Source of the DNA: a virus
IMG/VR virus record: IMGVR_UViG_3300034166_001133
Span: 1 to 45,647 of that record
Direction: 5' to 3' (one strand)
DNA length: 45,647 nt
A program made the translations under genes and the position numbers. Positions within the stretch are counted from its first letter, which is position 1; each line of letters starts with the position of its first letter. The notes below the pieces were generated by a model. It worked only from the letters and a program-made list of their open reading frames with translations, had not been told where the DNA came from and did not search any database. Positions 2,664-35,009 of the stretch are shown here, piece after piece.

Positions 2664-4015
2664 GCGAAGAACTCCCGACAATTGCCCAGAGCACTGTGCA
2701 GAACCTTGTGGTGCCCGACCACGGGTGGATTCGCGACTACGTCGACACCTACACTGGCCACGTTGAGGTACCGGCCGAAGCGTTCGCCGGTACTGCCTAC
2801 ACGCTGTTGTCGTCGGTTGTCGGCTGGAAGTCGTACCTCCAGTGGGCCGACGCAACCGAACCGCTCACGCTGTACACGGCGCTGATCGGTGCGTCTGCAA
2901 CCGCGCACAAAACGACGTCGCTGTCGATTGCCGAGCGCATCGGCCGTGACGCCAATGTGCAGTACCTACACCACTGTGGTGTAAGCCTCGACGACGAGGA
3001 CACTGACAACCTTGTTAAGGTCATTACCGGCGGTCATATGTCGCAGGCTCGGCTGCTCGACCTGCTGGGACCCAAGGACGCTGATCAGGCGTACGCGTGG
3101 GAGAAGGCCGGTGCGGTTCCACCCTGCCACCTTCTGGTCTGGGACGAACTCAAGGACCTGCTTGTGCAGGACAAGGGCTATAGCTTCCTCGGTGAGACCC
3201 GGCAGATGCTGCTGCGCATCTACGGAGGGTTCCAGCCGGGCTCTCAGACGCGCACCAACTACGTGCGTCCGGGGCGCTGCTCGATGGCGATGATGGGCAC
3301 AATCACCCTTGCCACGTGGAGCGACCAGCTTGGTGAAGAAGCGGTGTCGAGCGGGATGATGGGTCGACTGCTTGCGATCCCCTACGGCAAGCCGCCGCAC
3401 TGGGTGCCGCTGCCGTCGCCAATCAACGAGGAACGACGCCGCCACTTGGTGGACTGGCTCGTGGAGCTGGGGAACGTACCGTCAAAAAGTTGGGGACCGG
3501 TGCAACTGGACTCCGATGCTGCTGATTACTGGGTGGCGTGGTACACGGCACACAAGAACGAGATTGCGCGGCTTGAGACCCACGACGCCGTACAGGCAGC
3601 GGCGCAGGCCGCGCTGTTCGGTCGCTATCAGGCAACCGCGCTTAAATTCGCAGGGGTCCAGACGGTAAGCCGCTGGAACCCCGGCGACGGAGTACCTCGG
3701 GTACTCGTTGACGCGGACACGCTCAAAAGCGCGTGTGCGTATATCGACCACGTAATGCGGTTCTCGGTTCCCGTCGCAACTGAAGCGTTGGAGGACCGTG
3801 AGTACCGGCATCAGCGCCGTGTTACCGACTACGTGGCAGCCAACGGTCCGGTCAGCTTCACCGACCTGCAGCGTGCGGTGCGTACGCGTGGGATCACGGC
3901 TGACCGGTTCCGACGGCTTGTTGAGCTTCTCCACGACGAAGGGCAGCTGACCTTGTCGCGCCAGACGCGCGGCTCCCGTGAGGTCCTGCTCGTGAGCGCT
4001 GCCGAGCCTGAATGA
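2660..4015 (+). CDS. DUF3987-like P-loop ATPase/helicase-type replication protein with C-terminal winged helix
   Basis: This 451-residue protein follows the primase with an ATGA overlap. It carries a degenerate P-loop GASATAHKTTS at residues 77-87, a Walker B-like LLVWDELKDLL about 90 residues later, and SGMMGRLLAIPY, which looks like an arginine-finger/sensor region. This arrangement is typical of DUF3987 proteins found beside phage and plasmid primases. The last 70 or so residues (RVTDYVAANGPVSFTDLQRA...) look like a winged-helix DNA-binding domain. It probably acts as a replicative helicase or primase partner; helicase activity is inferred, as classical SF4 motifs are not clear. Confidence 0.7.
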   Translation: MSEELPTIAQSTVQNLVVPDHGWIRDYVDTYTGHVEVPAEAFAGTAYTLLSSVVGWKSYLQWADATEPLTLYTALIGASATAHKTTSLSIAERIGRDANVQYLHHCGVSLDDEDTDNLVKVITGGHMSQARLLDLLGPKDADQAYAWEKAGAVPPCHLLVWDELKDLLVQDKGYSFLGETRQMLLRIYGGFQPGSQTRTNYVRPGRCSMAMMGTITLATWSDQLGEEAVSSGMMGRLLAIPYGKPPHWVPLPSPINEERRRHLVDWLVELGNVPSKSWGPVQLDSDAADYWVAWYTAHKNEIARLETHDAVQAAAQAALFGRYQATALKFAGVQTVSRWNPGDGVPRVLVDADTLKSACAYIDHVMRFSVPVATEALEDREYRHQRRVTDYVAANGPVSFTDLQRAVRTRGITADRFRRLVELLHDEGQLTLSRQTRGSREVLLVSAAEPE

Positions 4016-6544: not shown

Positions 6545-7647
6545 TTGCCCCTCTTGACCTTTGGCGCCTTGCTTTTCACGGGCACGCCCATACGCGCAAG
6601 CCCTTCAAGGCGACGCTTTTCGCGGTAGGCCGCTGCCTTGCGCTCCTCTCTTGCGATATACGCTCGCGCCGCCCTCTTGTTGCCCGTGATTGCTACTGCA
6701 TCTCCCAGCCGCCCCTCCGCGCGGTCCACCGGAATGCCTGCAGCCTCGGCAGGATCGCTTGCGCCAATCGCGCCGACTACAGCCCCGACAGGGCCGAGCA
6801 CGCGTGCGGCTTTACCGACCCCCCTGACAAGCCTGCGCGCTGCCGACTCATCGCTCGCCCGCGTAAGGCCAAGCCCCGAATGGCCGCGCTTCACGGCCTC
6901 GTCGCTCCTGCGCTTTCCGGCAGCGTCACGCAGCCCCGACGCCATCGCTTCCTTGCCGCTTTTGCTGTAGCCGGGCGGCCGCTCCTTGCCGTCAACGCCG
7001 GTGTGCTTCTCGGTCATAAGGTGCCTTTTCAGGCCCTGTACGTCGCGTGCCGCTTTGAGCTTCTTTTGTGCGCGGCCGCGTCGGTCCTCGTTAACCGGCT
7101 CGGGGGAGGAGTCGCCGTCGTAGACCTCGCGCACCTCCCTGCCCCGATCGTCGCGCTGGTTTGGGTCAATACCCTTCGGCATATTGTCGGCGCTTTCGCG
7201 CCGCTGGGGCATTCCGTCTTCACGGCCCCCCAGCACCCGCTCTGCGTTGCGATCAGGAGGACGCCCAGCACGATCAAACTTGTCCTTGACGGTCGCTCGC
7301 TGCTGCATCTGTGACACGCCGCTTGCGGGTCCAAGGCGGCCGCCAAACGGCTTTGTCACCTTCATCCCACCCATACCGAACGAACCAGTAGCCTGTCGCT
7401 TCACCGATTCCTTGACGCGCCTGTGCTTTGACCGGCGCTGGATATCGGCGATGATCCCCTTGCTGCCGCCCTCACCGCGTGGGGTGTCCGGCCCGCTTTC
7501 GGCCCTCGCGTATTCGTCGCGCTGCTTGCCTAGTTCAATACGCTTTTTGGCCTGATCGGTAGTCGCCCCACCACCGGTCTTTAGGCCGCGCTTGACGGCA
7601 GGGACCGGCGCCTTTGCTTTGGGCTTGTCCTTCCCGCCCTTAGCCAT
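6541..7647 (-). CDS. Basic Arg/Lys/Gly-rich protein with a hydrophobic segment, probable virion protein
   Basis: This 368-residue protein starts at ATG 7647. It is rich in Lys, Arg, Gly and Pro throughout, with low-complexity charged repeats, and has one glycine-rich hydrophobic stretch, ARVLGPVGAVVGAIGAS, in the second half that could enter a membrane. It follows the lysis genes in the late arm. No family is recognised; a DNA-associated internal virion or ejection protein is possible. Confidence 0.6.
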   Translation of the reverse strand: MAKGGKDKPKAKAPVPAVKRGLKTGGGATTDQAKKRIELGKQRDEYARAESGPDTPRGEGGSKGIIADIQRRSKHRRVKESVKRQATGSFGMGGMKVTKPFGGRLGPASGVSQMQQRATVKDKFDRAGRPPDRNAERVLGGREDGMPQRRESADNMPKGIDPNQRDDRGREVREVYDGDSSPEPVNEDRRGRAQKKLKAARDVQGLKRHLMTEKHTGVDGKERPPGYSKSGKEAMASGLRDAAGKRRSDEAVKRGHSGLGLTRASDESAARRLVRGVGKAARVLGPVGAVVGAIGASDPAEAAGIPVDRAEGRLGDAVAITGNKRAARAYIAREERKAAAYREKRRLEGLARMGVPVKSKAPKVKRGK

Positions 7648-7862
7648 TACTCAGGCTCCACCTGTGGGTCACGGCTTGCCACCCACACCTGAAACGAGCG
7701 GCTGATTGTCACCGCTACGGCAGATACCGCGGCGGTGACAAGGGCGGCAACATTCGTCTCGCCATTCGCCACCGCCTCCACAACCGCGTCCACCGCCGAC
7801 CCGACAAAAAGCACCCCCAGCATCACCGTGGAAGGACCCACGGGAACCTTGTAGAACTTCAC
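7647..7862 (-). CDS. Small membrane protein, probable holin
   Basis: A 71-residue product begins at GTG 7862 with GGAGG just upstream, overlapping the amidase stop. It has two predicted membrane spans, about residues 12-31 (VMLGVLFVGSAVDAVVEAV) and 38-58 (AALVTAAVSAVAVTISRSF), and a short acidic tail, the usual layout of a small class II holin. It follows directly after the amidase gene, as expected for a lysis cassette. The sequence alone does not separate holin from antiholin. Confidence 0.65.
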   Translation of the reverse strand: MKFYKVPVGPSTVMLGVLFVGSAVDAVVEAVANGETNVAALVTAAVSAVAVTISRSFQVWVASRDPQVEPE

Positions 7863-22911: not shown

Positions 22912-23218
22912 CCGTGACGTCCAGCGTGTAGTTGGTGACCGAACCACCGCTCGTGAACTGGGTAGCAGTCGCCGTGAACAGCTTGATCTTGCTGTTCGTG
23001 TCGTCCCACACCGGGAACGACACAGCCGAGCCGGTCGTTGCAGGACCGTGGAACTGAATCCAGCGGATCTTGCTCAGACCAAACTCTCCGGGCGTGATCG
23101 CGAAGCCGCCAGTGTCGTAAGTGCCCGACAGCGTAATACGCCGACGGACCACGCGCTCACGACCAAGGAACGCCACACGGTCCACGCCGAGGATAGATTC
23201 TGACGTGGTGACAGCCAT
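22898..23218 (-). CDS. Small beta-rich protein after the capsid gene (decoration or head-fibre candidate)
   Basis: The 106-residue product starts at ATG 23218, overlapping the last base of the capsid stop. It is beta-rich and Ser/Thr/Gly-rich (ITLSGTYDTGGFAITPGEFG, GSAVSFPVWDD). Position directly downstream of the capsid gene suits a decoration protein, but no family is recognised. Confidence 0.68.
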   Translation of the reverse strand: MAVTTSESILGVDRVAFLGRERVVRRRITLSGTYDTGGFAITPGEFGLSKIRWIQFHGPATTGSAVSFPVWDDTNSKIKLFTATATQFTSGGSVTNYTLDVTVGGQ

Positions 23219-24492
23219 TAGACGCCCAGCTCCTCAAGGTCGTCAATGCGCCCGTGCATACGCGGGTGCTCGGTAACCAGAGTCATCATGCCGGTCAGGT
23301 GCGACTGGACCTTGGCCTTGTAGCCGCTGGTCGCAGGCACGTAACGCCACATGCTGCCGTCCATGTTCTGGAACTGGAACGTCCCACGCTCCTGATACTT
23401 CGGAACGCGGTAGGCAAACGACGGCTTGTGAATCAGGAACAGGTTGTTGTGGGGGCAGTGGATGTCGCCGTAAAGCGGCACACCAAAGATCTCCAGCTCC
23501 GGCCAACCCGTGTCCATCTTCTGGTAGCCCTGATAGCGCACGGCGGGCTGAAGCTGCTCGCCGTAGGCCGACCACACACCGAGGTTCGAGAAGAAGCAGT
23601 GGTTGGAGTCAATCGGGGCCTTACCCGTACGCCGGTTCATCTCGTTGATCAGCTGCAGGATCACGTCAAGCGTGACCGGACGCAGGGTGCCACCATTGTC
23701 AATGACGTTGGACTTCCAGAAGTACCCGATACCGGCCGCGGTGCGGTCGAGGGTCAGGTACGTGTTGCTCTCCGAGATAGCCGACATCACGCCCTGAAAC
23801 TCACGGCTGGTGAACGCGCCACCCGAACCGTAGGCGTTGCCCGAACGCACAATCACACCAGCGGAGGTCACGCTCGAAGCGTCTCCGACCACCGTGATCT
23901 CGTTGTTCGAACGGTTGATGTTGCTGATCGTCAGGCCAGTAGCCTGCGAAGCGCCGGTGGTGCCGTGCACCACGTCGATCTTGAGGCCGTTCTCCTCAAG
24001 CCAGTTGAACCGGTCACGGTCAATCTGGCTGGAGGTGGTGGCGTCAAGGGTGATCACCTGCGAAGCAACCGAGGCGCAGTTGGCCAGCTTGGCCGTACCG
24101 TCGCCCCACGTCTGGCGCACCACGTCACGGCGGACGGTGCGCACGAGGTCGTCGAGCTTGTGCTGGACGACCGGCAGAGCAGCCGCGTCACGTCCGTTAA
24201 GCAGGTCGATCTCGTCGAGGGTGAACTCCACGGTGGCCGCAATACGCTTGAGGCCAATCTCAGCCTCGTCGTACTTGGGGTCACCGGCGTCGGGGAAAGT
24301 GCCGCCCTCGTCAATGTTGCTGATACCGAGGGAACGGCCGATAAGGAACTTGATAAAGGTCTTGCGACCCTTAACGTCCTTGCTGGACTTCTGGATGTAC
24401 GAATACAGGGAGCCAGTCTCGGTCTCAAGCTCGTCGTTGAGCCCGGGCTCCCACGTGTCGTACGCCAGATCGTTAAGCGTAGCGAGTGACAA
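23218..24492 (-). CDS. Major capsid protein
   Basis: This 424-residue protein forms the head shell. Support comes from position right after the scaffold, length, and a typical capsid N-terminal region (LYSYIQKSSKDVKGRKTFIKF) and C-terminal domain (GVPLYGDIHCPHNNLFLIHKP, near-terminal Met/Arg-rich end). The TTG start at 24492 is set by GAGGT at 24501-24497 on the minus strand, five bases upstream. It is preceded by a 167-base leader filled by two RNA hairpins. Capsid call is by synteny and pattern, with an HK97-type fold assumed. Confidence 0.85.
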   Translation of the reverse strand: MSLATLNDLAYDTWEPGLNDELETETGSLYSYIQKSSKDVKGRKTFIKFLIGRSLGISNIDEGGTFPDAGDPKYDEAEIGLKRIAATVEFTLDEIDLLNGRDAAALPVVQHKLDDLVRTVRRDVVRQTWGDGTAKLANCASVASQVITLDATTSSQIDRDRFNWLEENGLKIDVVHGTTGASQATGLTISNINRSNNEITVVGDASSVTSAGVIVRSGNAYGSGGAFTSREFQGVMSAISESNTYLTLDRTAAGIGYFWKSNVIDNGGTLRPVTLDVILQLINEMNRRTGKAPIDSNHCFFSNLGVWSAYGEQLQPAVRYQGYQKMDTGWPELEIFGVPLYGDIHCPHNNLFLIHKPSFAYRVPKYQERGTFQFQNMDGSMWRYVPATSGYKAKVQSHLTGMMTLVTEHPRMHGRIDDLEELGV

Positions 24493-24504
24493 ATTTACCT
24501 CAAA

Positions 24505-24594
24505 GGTTGGTGAGAAACGGGGTTACTAGGCGACAGAAACCCTCTAGGGGTGAATATGTTTTCTGCCACCGAACCGCGCCGTCTCTCACCAACC
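24505..24594 (-). promoter_or_regulatory. Nested RNA hairpin in the capsid leader
   Basis: On the minus-strand transcript 24594-24579 pairs with 24520-24505 (16 pairs), 24575-24572 with 24524-24521 (4), and 24570-24560 with 24539-24529 (11), with a small apical stem near 24550-24540. All three non-Watson-Crick positions (24516/24583, 24531/24568, 24533/24566) are G-U pairs on the minus strand and A/C clashes on the plus strand. The 3' arm ends 3 bases before the capsid ribosome-binding site. Confidence 0.75.
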
Positions 24595-24608
24595 GAAGAG
24601 GCATCGCC

Positions 24609-24660
24609 GCGCGTATTACTTTGGGAACCGTACCGCAATCGGTACTTTCCCGTTACGCGC
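24609..24660 (-). promoter_or_regulatory. Second hairpin, overlapping the scaffold stop codon
   Basis: Three nested Watson-Crick stems: 24609-24615 with 24654-24660 (7 bp), 24623-24627 with 24647-24651 (5 bp), and GTACCG/CGGTAC at 24630-24635/24640-24645 (6 bp, loop CAAT). No U-tract follows on the minus strand, so it is more likely a processing, stability or attenuation element than a classical terminator. Confidence 0.6.
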
Positions 24661-25451
24661 TACTCGTTAGGAATCCCAAGCCTTTCTGCGGTCCTAGCGA
24701 GTGCCGACTGAATACCGCGACCCGGAGGGGCGTCACCGGGCACGCCCGAGGGGGGTGCCGACGTCATTGGCCCAGAGTTGGTCGACGTTGCTGCGCGTGC
24801 CATACGCTTCTGGTACATCGACTCAATCTGGTTCCACGTGCTGTTCATCAGCTGGGGAATCTCGTCGAGGTCGACCTGCTGGTTCTGCAGGCGCGAGATC
24901 GCCGACTCCCACAGGAACGCCTTTTCCGACTCCTCAAGACCGTTGTCGTTCGACACACGGTCCAGCTGCCCCTGCAGGTCTGACACCAAACGCTCGGTCT
25001 GAAGCTGCTGCTGCATCTGCTCGCGCTCGCGGGCAAGCTCCTGCTGCATATCTGCACGCCACACGTCGCGAAGCTGGTACGGGTCAACCCCACCGGAATC
25101 AGCGCCGTAGTTGGTGTAGTCCTCGTACTGGCTGTCGTCCTCGTAGTACTGCTGGTCGACGTACCCGGCGAACGGGTCGTCGCGCTCGGCGCGGATCTGG
25201 TCACGAAGGGACATCAGCTCTGAAAGCGACTCGTCGTCGCCAAGGTGGCCCCAGCGACGGAGCGCCTGCTCAAGCGTTGCCTCGTGGGAATCAGCAGCAG
25301 TCAGCTCCGACACCCAGTCAACGTACTGCCGCACCTCGTACGGGTTCAGCTCATTGGGGTCGATACCGGCCTTCTCCCACGCTTCCCACGAAGCGCCGGA
25401 AACCCCCTCGCCCCCGTCGGGGGCATCGCCAGAAAGTTCCTCAGTTGACAA
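24660..25451 (-). CDS. Scaffolding protein
   Basis: This 263-residue, acidic, Gln/Glu/Asp-rich protein lies between portal and capsid genes. It is mostly helical with a coiled-coil middle (LAREREQMQQQLQTERLVSDLQ) and a Pro/Gly-rich patch before a short C-terminal helix (IQSALARTAERLGIP), which is often the capsid-binding element in scaffolds. It guides prohead assembly and is then removed. TTG start at 25451. The call is from composition and order, not from a domain hit. Confidence 0.8.
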   Translation of the reverse strand: MSTEELSGDAPDGGEGVSGASWEAWEKAGIDPNELNPYEVRQYVDWVSELTAADSHEATLEQALRRWGHLGDDESLSELMSLRDQIRAERDDPFAGYVDQQYYEDDSQYEDYTNYGADSGGVDPYQLRDVWRADMQQELAREREQMQQQLQTERLVSDLQGQLDRVSNDNGLEESEKAFLWESAISRLQNQQVDLDEIPQLMNSTWNQIESMYQKRMARAATSTNSGPMTSAPPSGVPGDAPPGRGIQSALARTAERLGIPNE

Positions 25452-34377: not shown

Positions 34378-34512
34378 GTACTGGCTACTTTAAGCCCCCG
34401 CTACAAGCGTTTTGGCAACTTGTTCCTGTCTACGGCGTTGCACGGCCGCTTGGAGCGAGGGCACAAGGGTTCTAGTAGTCCTGAAAAAATTGGCTAGGGA
34501 ACCTAGTCCGGT

Positions 34513-34548
34513 GTCTCAAAAAACTGGGACAACGTCTCGCGAAACTGG
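34513..34548. repeat. Direct repeat GTCTCnnnnAAACTGG-type, 21-bp period (operator candidate)
   Basis: GTCTCAAAAAACTGG (34513-34527) and GTCTCGCGAAACTGG (34534-34548) are spaced exactly 21 bp, two helical turns, so a dimeric regulator could bind the same DNA face. A TATAAC (34577-34582) lies 29 bases downstream on the plus strand. Confidence 0.55.
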
Positions 34549-34580
34549 CTTACCCTAGCCGCGTGCAGCCGCTACATATA

Positions 34581-34625
34581 ACTTGGGACCCGGGGCCTGA
34601 TCCGGGCTACCCCCGGTCCCAAAGT
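34581..34625. other. Long hairpin in the divergent region
   Basis: ACTTGGGACC plus GGGG (34581-34595, one bulged C at 34591) pairs with CCCC, GGTCCC and AAGT (34611-34625, one bulged A at 34621), giving about 14 pairs around a 15-base loop. No U-tract is present on either side. It could be an insulating terminator between arms, an origin or packaging element, or a leader structure. Confidence 0.55.
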
Positions 34626-34687
34626 CAACGTAGCGCGCAACAAACACCGCCGGGTTGCGTCACACTGGTTCGCCTGTATCGCTGATT

Positions 34688-34706
34688 CCCGTTTCCGGTA
34701 AACGGG
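34688..34706. other. Short perfect hairpin
   Basis: CCCGTTT (34688-34694) pairs with AAACGGG (34700-34706) around CCGGT. TTTC follows on the plus strand. It may be a weak terminator or a protein site. Confidence 0.4.
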
Positions 34707-34719
34707 TTTCTGTGTGCTG

Positions 34720-34906
34720 AGTTGCCAGCAACGCGGCGGCTTCTCACGACGGTTAATGGTCACCGTGGTACTGGTCTCCCAGCACAACGTCTCCTCGGTG
34801 CCGTGTACTACGCCTACCTAGTTGCCACGGTGGTTGCTGCGCGTGTCCAGCACCACTCCCACTACGTCCTCGTCCTCCTGTGCCTAGCCGCTTGACTCAG
34901 TTGCCA
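34720..34906 (+). repeat. Three AGTTGCCA octamers
   Basis: AGTTGCCA occurs at 34720-34727, 34820-34827 and 34899-34906, all on the plus strand within 187 bases of non-coding DNA. The spacings are 100 and 79 bases. They may be binding sites for a phage or host regulator. Confidence 0.4.
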
Positions 34907-34927
34907 CGCAACAGCCACGGAGTCAAG
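34891..34927. repeat. Inverted repeat CTTGACTC/GAGTCAAG
   Basis: Perfect 8-bp arms at 34891-34898 and 34920-34927 are separated by 21 bases. The left arm contains a -35-like TTGACT and one AGTTGCCA octamer starts inside it. This looks like an operator upstream of the plus-strand arm. Confidence 0.45.
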
Positions 34928-34968
34928 TACCCCGCTTGACACCGCGGCTGTCACGTGGCGTCGCTTTA

Positions 34969-34985
34969 GGTGCCGCTTCGGCACC
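34969..34985 (+). promoter_or_regulatory. Leader hairpin just upstream of the first plus-arm gene
   Basis: GGTGCCG (34969-34975) pairs with CGGCACC (34979-34985) around CTT. The CAGGAGAA ribosome-binding site of the 35010 gene follows ten bases later. It is probably a 5' mRNA stem. Confidence 0.5.
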
Positions 34986-35009
34986 AACACCTACACAGGA
35001 GAACGCACC

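Follow-up and report, generated by a model that had tools for sequence, protein, structure and literature searches.

Structured RNA between a putative scaffold gene and the capsid gene

On the minus strand of the window (the whole 45,647-nt stretch of viral DNA analyzed here), a gene for the major capsid protein is preceded by a putative scaffold gene, whose 263-aa product had no match in a family search (Table 1). The 167-nt gap between the two genes was found to be structured end to end. From 5' to 3' on the minus strand, it comprises hairpin 1, whose first base in the window is the final one of the scaffold stop codon, a short linker (GGCGAUG in the window, 24608-24602), and the hairpin that was reported first, referred to below as hairpin 2.

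For hairpin 2, the first-pass annotation had described nested stems of 16, 4, and 11 pairs in the minus-strand RNA (24594-24505), and both the pairing and the coordinates proved exact, with a folding energy of -48.8 kcal/mol and a z score of -7.7 in a calculation that leaves out cotranscriptional folding, ribosomes, and host temperature. None of 200 dinucleotide shuffles folded equally well, while the plus-strand reading of the same stretch was weaker (-41.4 kcal/mol; z, -5.1). As annotated, three bases (TTT) separate the end of the 3' arm at 24505 from GAGG (24501-24498) of the capsid gene, which starts with TTG at 24492, and all three non-Watson-Crick positions are G-U pairs on the minus strand, two of them in the apical stem and the third in the main stem. 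Folding of the minus-strand region from 24660 to 24480, which had been proposed as a check, gave a z score of -8.8. Moreover, when 1,518 minus-strand segments of 110 nt were scanned on a grid set so that one segment contained the whole element, the lowest z score of all (-7.7) belonged to the segment starting at 24604.

The hairpin itself is real; the anti-Shine-Dalgarno stem, hairpin 1, the linker, and the bulge core had been overlooked, and it is these parts that tell most about the mechanism. The strand UGCCUC pairs with GAGGUA, which places the capsid ribosome-binding site within the structure, at the foot of the hairpin; a 3 × 3 internal loop lies between this Shine-Dalgarno stem and the main stem.

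TABLE 1 Features of the scaffold-capsid region, in 5'-to-3' order on the minus strand
Feature	Position in window	Strand	Remarks
Putative scaffold gene	24660..25451	-	263 aa; named by position and by the first-pass annotation
Hairpin 1	24609..24660	-	Sequence variable, present in every relative; z, -2.0 to -9.2 (eight sequences)
Linker GGCG(A/G)UG, within GCGGCGRUG	24602..24608	-	In 9/9 sequences; A to G once
Anti-Shine-Dalgarno strand UGCCUC	24598..24603	-	CCUC invariant across relatives
Main stem, 5' arm	24579..24594	-	16 bp; 12-17 bp among relatives
Bulge CGC, 3 nt (YGC in relatives)	24576..24578	-	Center of ACGG-YGC-GGUU/AACC-CCGU core
Inner stem GGUU, 5' arm	24572..24575	-	Fold and relatives' sequences
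Apical stem-loop	24525..24571	-	Seven sequences, z of -2.6 to -3.8 for each
Inner stem AACC, 3' arm	24521..24524	-	Fold and relatives' sequences
Main stem, 3' arm	24505..24520	-	Pairs with 24579..24594
Capsid Shine-Dalgarno GAGGUA	24496..24501	-	Pairs with 24598-24603
Major capsid protein gene	23218..24492	-	TTG start; phrog_14242 major head protein, E 1.4e-43

Conservation and covariation among relatives

To gather relatives, IMG/VR and prokaryote genome contigs were searched for the capsid. Ten contigs carried the element directly before a homologous capsid gene, namely, L001 to L008 and L029 from IMG/VR and L030 from a metagenome-assembled genome (MAG). L001 and L008 were identical to the window, and L002 differed in hairpin 1 only; the comparison set thus held nine sequences, window included, all of them metagenomic, of which seven were closely related and two (L006 and L029) were distant. 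Capsid identity ranged from approximately 100% down to 66% (L006) and 62% (L029). Contigs of this phage group, including L030 (RFSE01000151.1), were binned in a MAG labeled Proteobacteria, and the nearest cultured capsids to the group are those of actinobacterial phages. In cultured phages whose capsids are distant (20-25% identity; Arthrobacter, Cellulosimicrobium, and Microbacterium), the gap before the capsid gene is just a few tens of bases and contains no such structure.

Every relative, folded alone, gave the same architecture as its minimum-energy fold, and the motifs GCGGCG(A/G)UG, CCUC, ACGG-YGC-GGUU, (A/U)ACC-CCGU, and GAGG were common to all of them. The first-pass annotation had suggested a covariance model and a search of relatives for compensatory changes upstream of capsid genes. 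Built from the seven close relatives, the model recovered the held-out L029 at an E value of 1.2e-8 and L006 at 2.1e-6, both matches sitting immediately upstream of the capsid genes. The search returned a single place per record, and matches on the opposite strand were the same palindrome in reverse. The many loose DNA-pattern matches across IMG/VR, those in the same contigs excepted, were dismissed as chance; they had no flanking stem and lay mostly in coding regions.

The 12 main-stem pairs common to the group were kept in 96 of 96 cases (eight sequences), against 43-62 of 96 for registers shifted by 1-4 nt; these counts come from a manual alignment anchored at the bulge, the automatic MAFFT alignment having misplaced L006 and L029. 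Counted outwards from the bulge, both sides had changed at positions 6 (A-U to U-A), 8 (A-U to G-C), 9 (G-C to A-U), and 12 (G-C to A-U) and, just beyond the common pairs, at position 13 in L029 (U-A to G-C). The only stem break was a C-A in L007. The observed covariation score was reached by 1 of 10,000 column shuffles, which ignore phylogeny, although the compensatory changes are spread over different sequence groups. Neither of the outcomes that the first-pass annotation had named as counting against it, i.e., uncompensated broken stems in homologous leaders or a stability no better than that of dinucleotide shuffles, was observed. Its broader proposal of an RNA-level control element on the capsid transcript is supported by the compensatory changes and the conserved sequestration of the Shine-Dalgarno sequence, and we are highly confident that the RNA is real and under selection.

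Conservation was distributed unevenly along the element. Hairpin 1 and the apical part could not be aligned across the group, and each of them beat most shuffles; the apical part, at 34-68 nt, defied alignment between distant relatives and yet was always folded. The core ACGG-YGC-GGUU/AACC-CCGU was nearly invariant, with UACC replacing AACC in L005, L007, and L030. Identity at the third positions of conserved codons was 43-49% in distant relatives, whereas the core, linker, and CCUC hardly varied. Although the apical part varies twofold in length, the spacing from the core to the Shine-Dalgarno sequence on the 3' strand stays at 16-19 bases. A near-invariant core kept at this spacing is what would be expected if the helix carried a recognized site and were not conserved for its own sake. 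For the linker GGCGRUG, candidate pairing partners were sought by eye in the bulge, apical loop, and start region; these pairings were discarded, none being kept across relatives.

The preference of the G-U pairs for one strand had been taken as a mark of selection on the transcript, which held in part. The sense strand folded more strongly than the antisense strand in eight of the nine sequences, L003 being the exception, and the main stems of the relatives contained nine G-U pairs versus one A-C; however, most of this excess is one inherited wobble, so the strand bias by itself is modest evidence. Both observations speak against a DNA-level palindrome (for packaging, recombination, or protein binding), a terminator, or a mobile repeat. 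This is a set of explanations that would account for an inverted repeat present on both strands and that we regard as scarcely credible; it is further opposed by the single copy per genome, always in the same place. With regard to an intrinsic terminator, no T-run follows the stem on the minus strand, and no minus-strand terminator-like site was found at the element.

Ribosome access and probable control of capsid synthesis

Pairing of CCUC with GAGG was present in all nine sequences, and the capsid Shine-Dalgarno sequence had an unpaired probability of about 0-0.07 in the computed ensemble. Opening it would cost 5.5-13.4 kcal/mol across the nine sequences, compared with 1.4-4.2 kcal/mol for eight of the nine other genes of the phage with a recognizable Shine-Dalgarno sequence and 8.6 kcal/mol for the ninth. 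The capsid start codons are also weak, being TTG in all compared sequences except L006 (ATT) and L029 (ATG). In L006, the ATT at the homologous capsid start (3001-3003) follows AAGGAGG; either the start codon is a rare one or the sequence contains an error. Since capsid protein is needed in large amounts, a permanently closed ribosome-binding site would need an opening step, which is a point against the operator reading given below.

One candidate for such a step is the translation of a small open reading frame (ORF) from the (A/G)UG of the linker, which would bring a ribosome onto CCUC and so release the Shine-Dalgarno sequence of the capsid gene. This (A/G)UG is conserved just ahead of CCUC, and the ORF in the window ends at a UGA that overlaps the Shine-Dalgarno sequence. 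However, 19, 20, or 22 nt separate the (A/G)UG from the core, and the frame is therefore not preserved; the encoded peptides vary in both length and sequence, and no Shine-Dalgarno sequence precedes the (A/G)UG. We therefore consider a translated leader highly unlikely, and leader-peptide control was set aside, no conserved reading frame or peptide being found among the relatives.

Taken together, the element probably represents a conserved RNA that controls the timing or strength of capsid synthesis in this environmental phage group, and it is plausible that it sets how much capsid is made relative to scaffold, the purpose put forward in the first-pass annotation. Our preferred reading, which we give an even chance of being correct, is a translational operator. 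It would keep the Shine-Dalgarno sequence of the capsid gene closed, and a putative trans factor would read its bulge core. In the ground state, the CCUC strand would pair with the capsid Shine-Dalgarno sequence at the foot of the long stable stem and thereby exclude the ribosome. The scaffold ribosome is expected to halt upstream, at the start of hairpin 1, leaving hairpin 2 unopened, so that capsid translation would be uncoupled from scaffold translation. The bulge core would be the most likely binding site of the trans factor, which could come from the host or be a phage product such as the capsid or scaffold protein. Binding might either lock the closed form, as feedback repression by unassembled capsid or scaffold protein, or open it, in the way that Com activates Mu mom. 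The fold, its covariation, the sequestration of the Shine-Dalgarno sequence, the constrained core, and the occurrence of one copy per genome at a fixed place are all supported computationally, while, within the operator reading, we infer which factor binds and in which direction it regulates. A more specific version is tentative and rather unlikely: the late mRNA of a tailed DNA phage would carry a dedicated bulged operator to which the phage's own capsid or scaffold protein binds, so that the capsid ribosome-binding site is closed or opened.

The main rival to an operator is processing by RNase III or another double-strand nuclease, which would cut the helix, remove the 5' arm together with CCUC, free the Shine-Dalgarno sequence, and yield a separate capsid mRNA. 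A near-continuous helix of more than 20 pairs, a length compatible with RNase III, exists in every relative; moreover, the site lies between two genes whose products are wanted in different amounts, and cleavage would supply the opening step that the sequestered Shine-Dalgarno sequence requires. The core's sequence constraint could also serve a nuclease. RNase III, however, has no need of an invariant 3-nt bulge core, and conservation of the core far exceeds that of the surrounding helix, leaving this processing model as a doubtful possibility. Cleavage might instead fall within GGCGRUG, after which the scaffold mRNA would be shielded at its 3' end by hairpin 1 and the capsid mRNA at its 5' end by hairpin 2. 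Such a role in stability and segmentation fits a conserved linker between two stable hairpins in all relatives. The linker is not A/U-rich, unlike typical RNase E sites, and stability alone requires neither an invariant CCUC opposite the Shine-Dalgarno sequence nor a constrained bulge; we thus judge it quite improbable.

Known RNAs and other structured regions of the window

No Rfam 15 family matched the whole window at gathering cutoffs or four of the relatives at E values up to 1, and the element region at E values up to 10 gave chance-level matches only (best E value, 0.21, far below the gathering score). In agreement with the first-pass annotation, which knew of no such case, no capsid leader of this form was found described in the open-access literature, which was the scope of the survey. 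In the main text of two large-scale comparisons of structured RNAs (PMC8040213 and PMC2864571), capsid is not mentioned. The element was filed as a new family among Shine-Dalgarno-sequestering leaders, given that neither Rfam nor the open-access literature provided a match: the type of leader is known, whereas the gene context and the recognition-like core are new.

Four known phage systems come closest to the element. The MS2/R17 coat-protein operator is a bulged hairpin of approximately 19 nt at a ribosome-binding site of an RNA-phage mRNA, with constrained nucleotides around a single bulged A, and it controls the replicase rather than the coat gene. The present element is likewise a bulged hairpin at a phage mRNA ribosome-binding site with strongly constrained bulge surroundings, but MS2 is an RNA phage, whereas here the element precedes the capsid gene, the bulge has 3 nt, and binding of capsid protein is putative. 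In the com-mom leader of phage Mu, a stem conceals the ribosome-binding site of a late gene, the translation of which is activated by the phage protein Com. The two share a DNA-phage late gene with its ribosome-binding site within a stem, protein control being putative here; they differ in gene and RNA, and no Com-like protein was seen among the genes scanned.

In addition, the leaders of lambda N and T7 early genes carry a long double-stranded stem directly before the ribosome-binding site and are controlled by RNase III. The long stem immediately before a phage ribosome-binding site is a shared feature, but those are early genes, we know of no invariant bulge core in their leaders, and RNase III cleavage of the present element is putative. 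The scaffolding protein of P22 regulates its own gene posttranscriptionally; a posttranscriptional balance of scaffold and capsid in a DNA phage, putative in our case, is the point of likeness, and to our knowledge no comparable RNA structure is known from P22.

Tailed phages make hundreds of capsid subunits, in the right proportion to scaffold, from one late mRNA, and this ratio is usually ascribed to ribosome-binding-site strength, coupling, or the ends of transcripts. With its nearly invariant, recognition-like core, a conserved RNA by which the capsid ribosome-binding site is closed would be a dedicated control point for this ratio, and it may supply a compact RNA-protein switch. If the operator is bound by capsid or scaffold protein, it would be a DNA-phage counterpart of the MS2 coat operator, through which the amount of unassembled head protein would govern capsid synthesis.

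Other structured regions were observed on the minus strand of the window. An apparently noncoding region at 34380-34760, immediately ahead of the terminase gene, shows partial conservation among relatives. The late operon may thus have another structured leader here, since the region includes the probable stem CGCUCYAAGCG ... CGCUUGNAGCG, located no more than about 90 nt from the start of the terminase gene. A further stem, 18 pairs long without a break, G-U included (GCCACGUGACAGCCGCGG/CCGUGGCUGUUGCGUGGC; z, -5.2), occurs at 34870-34990 in the stretch of ∼600 nt upstream of the terminase gene and is kept in the near-identical relative G007, while it was not seen in G001 and G002. Finally, a strong fold (z, -4.7) was located at 7635-7760, around the gap after the endolysin gene.
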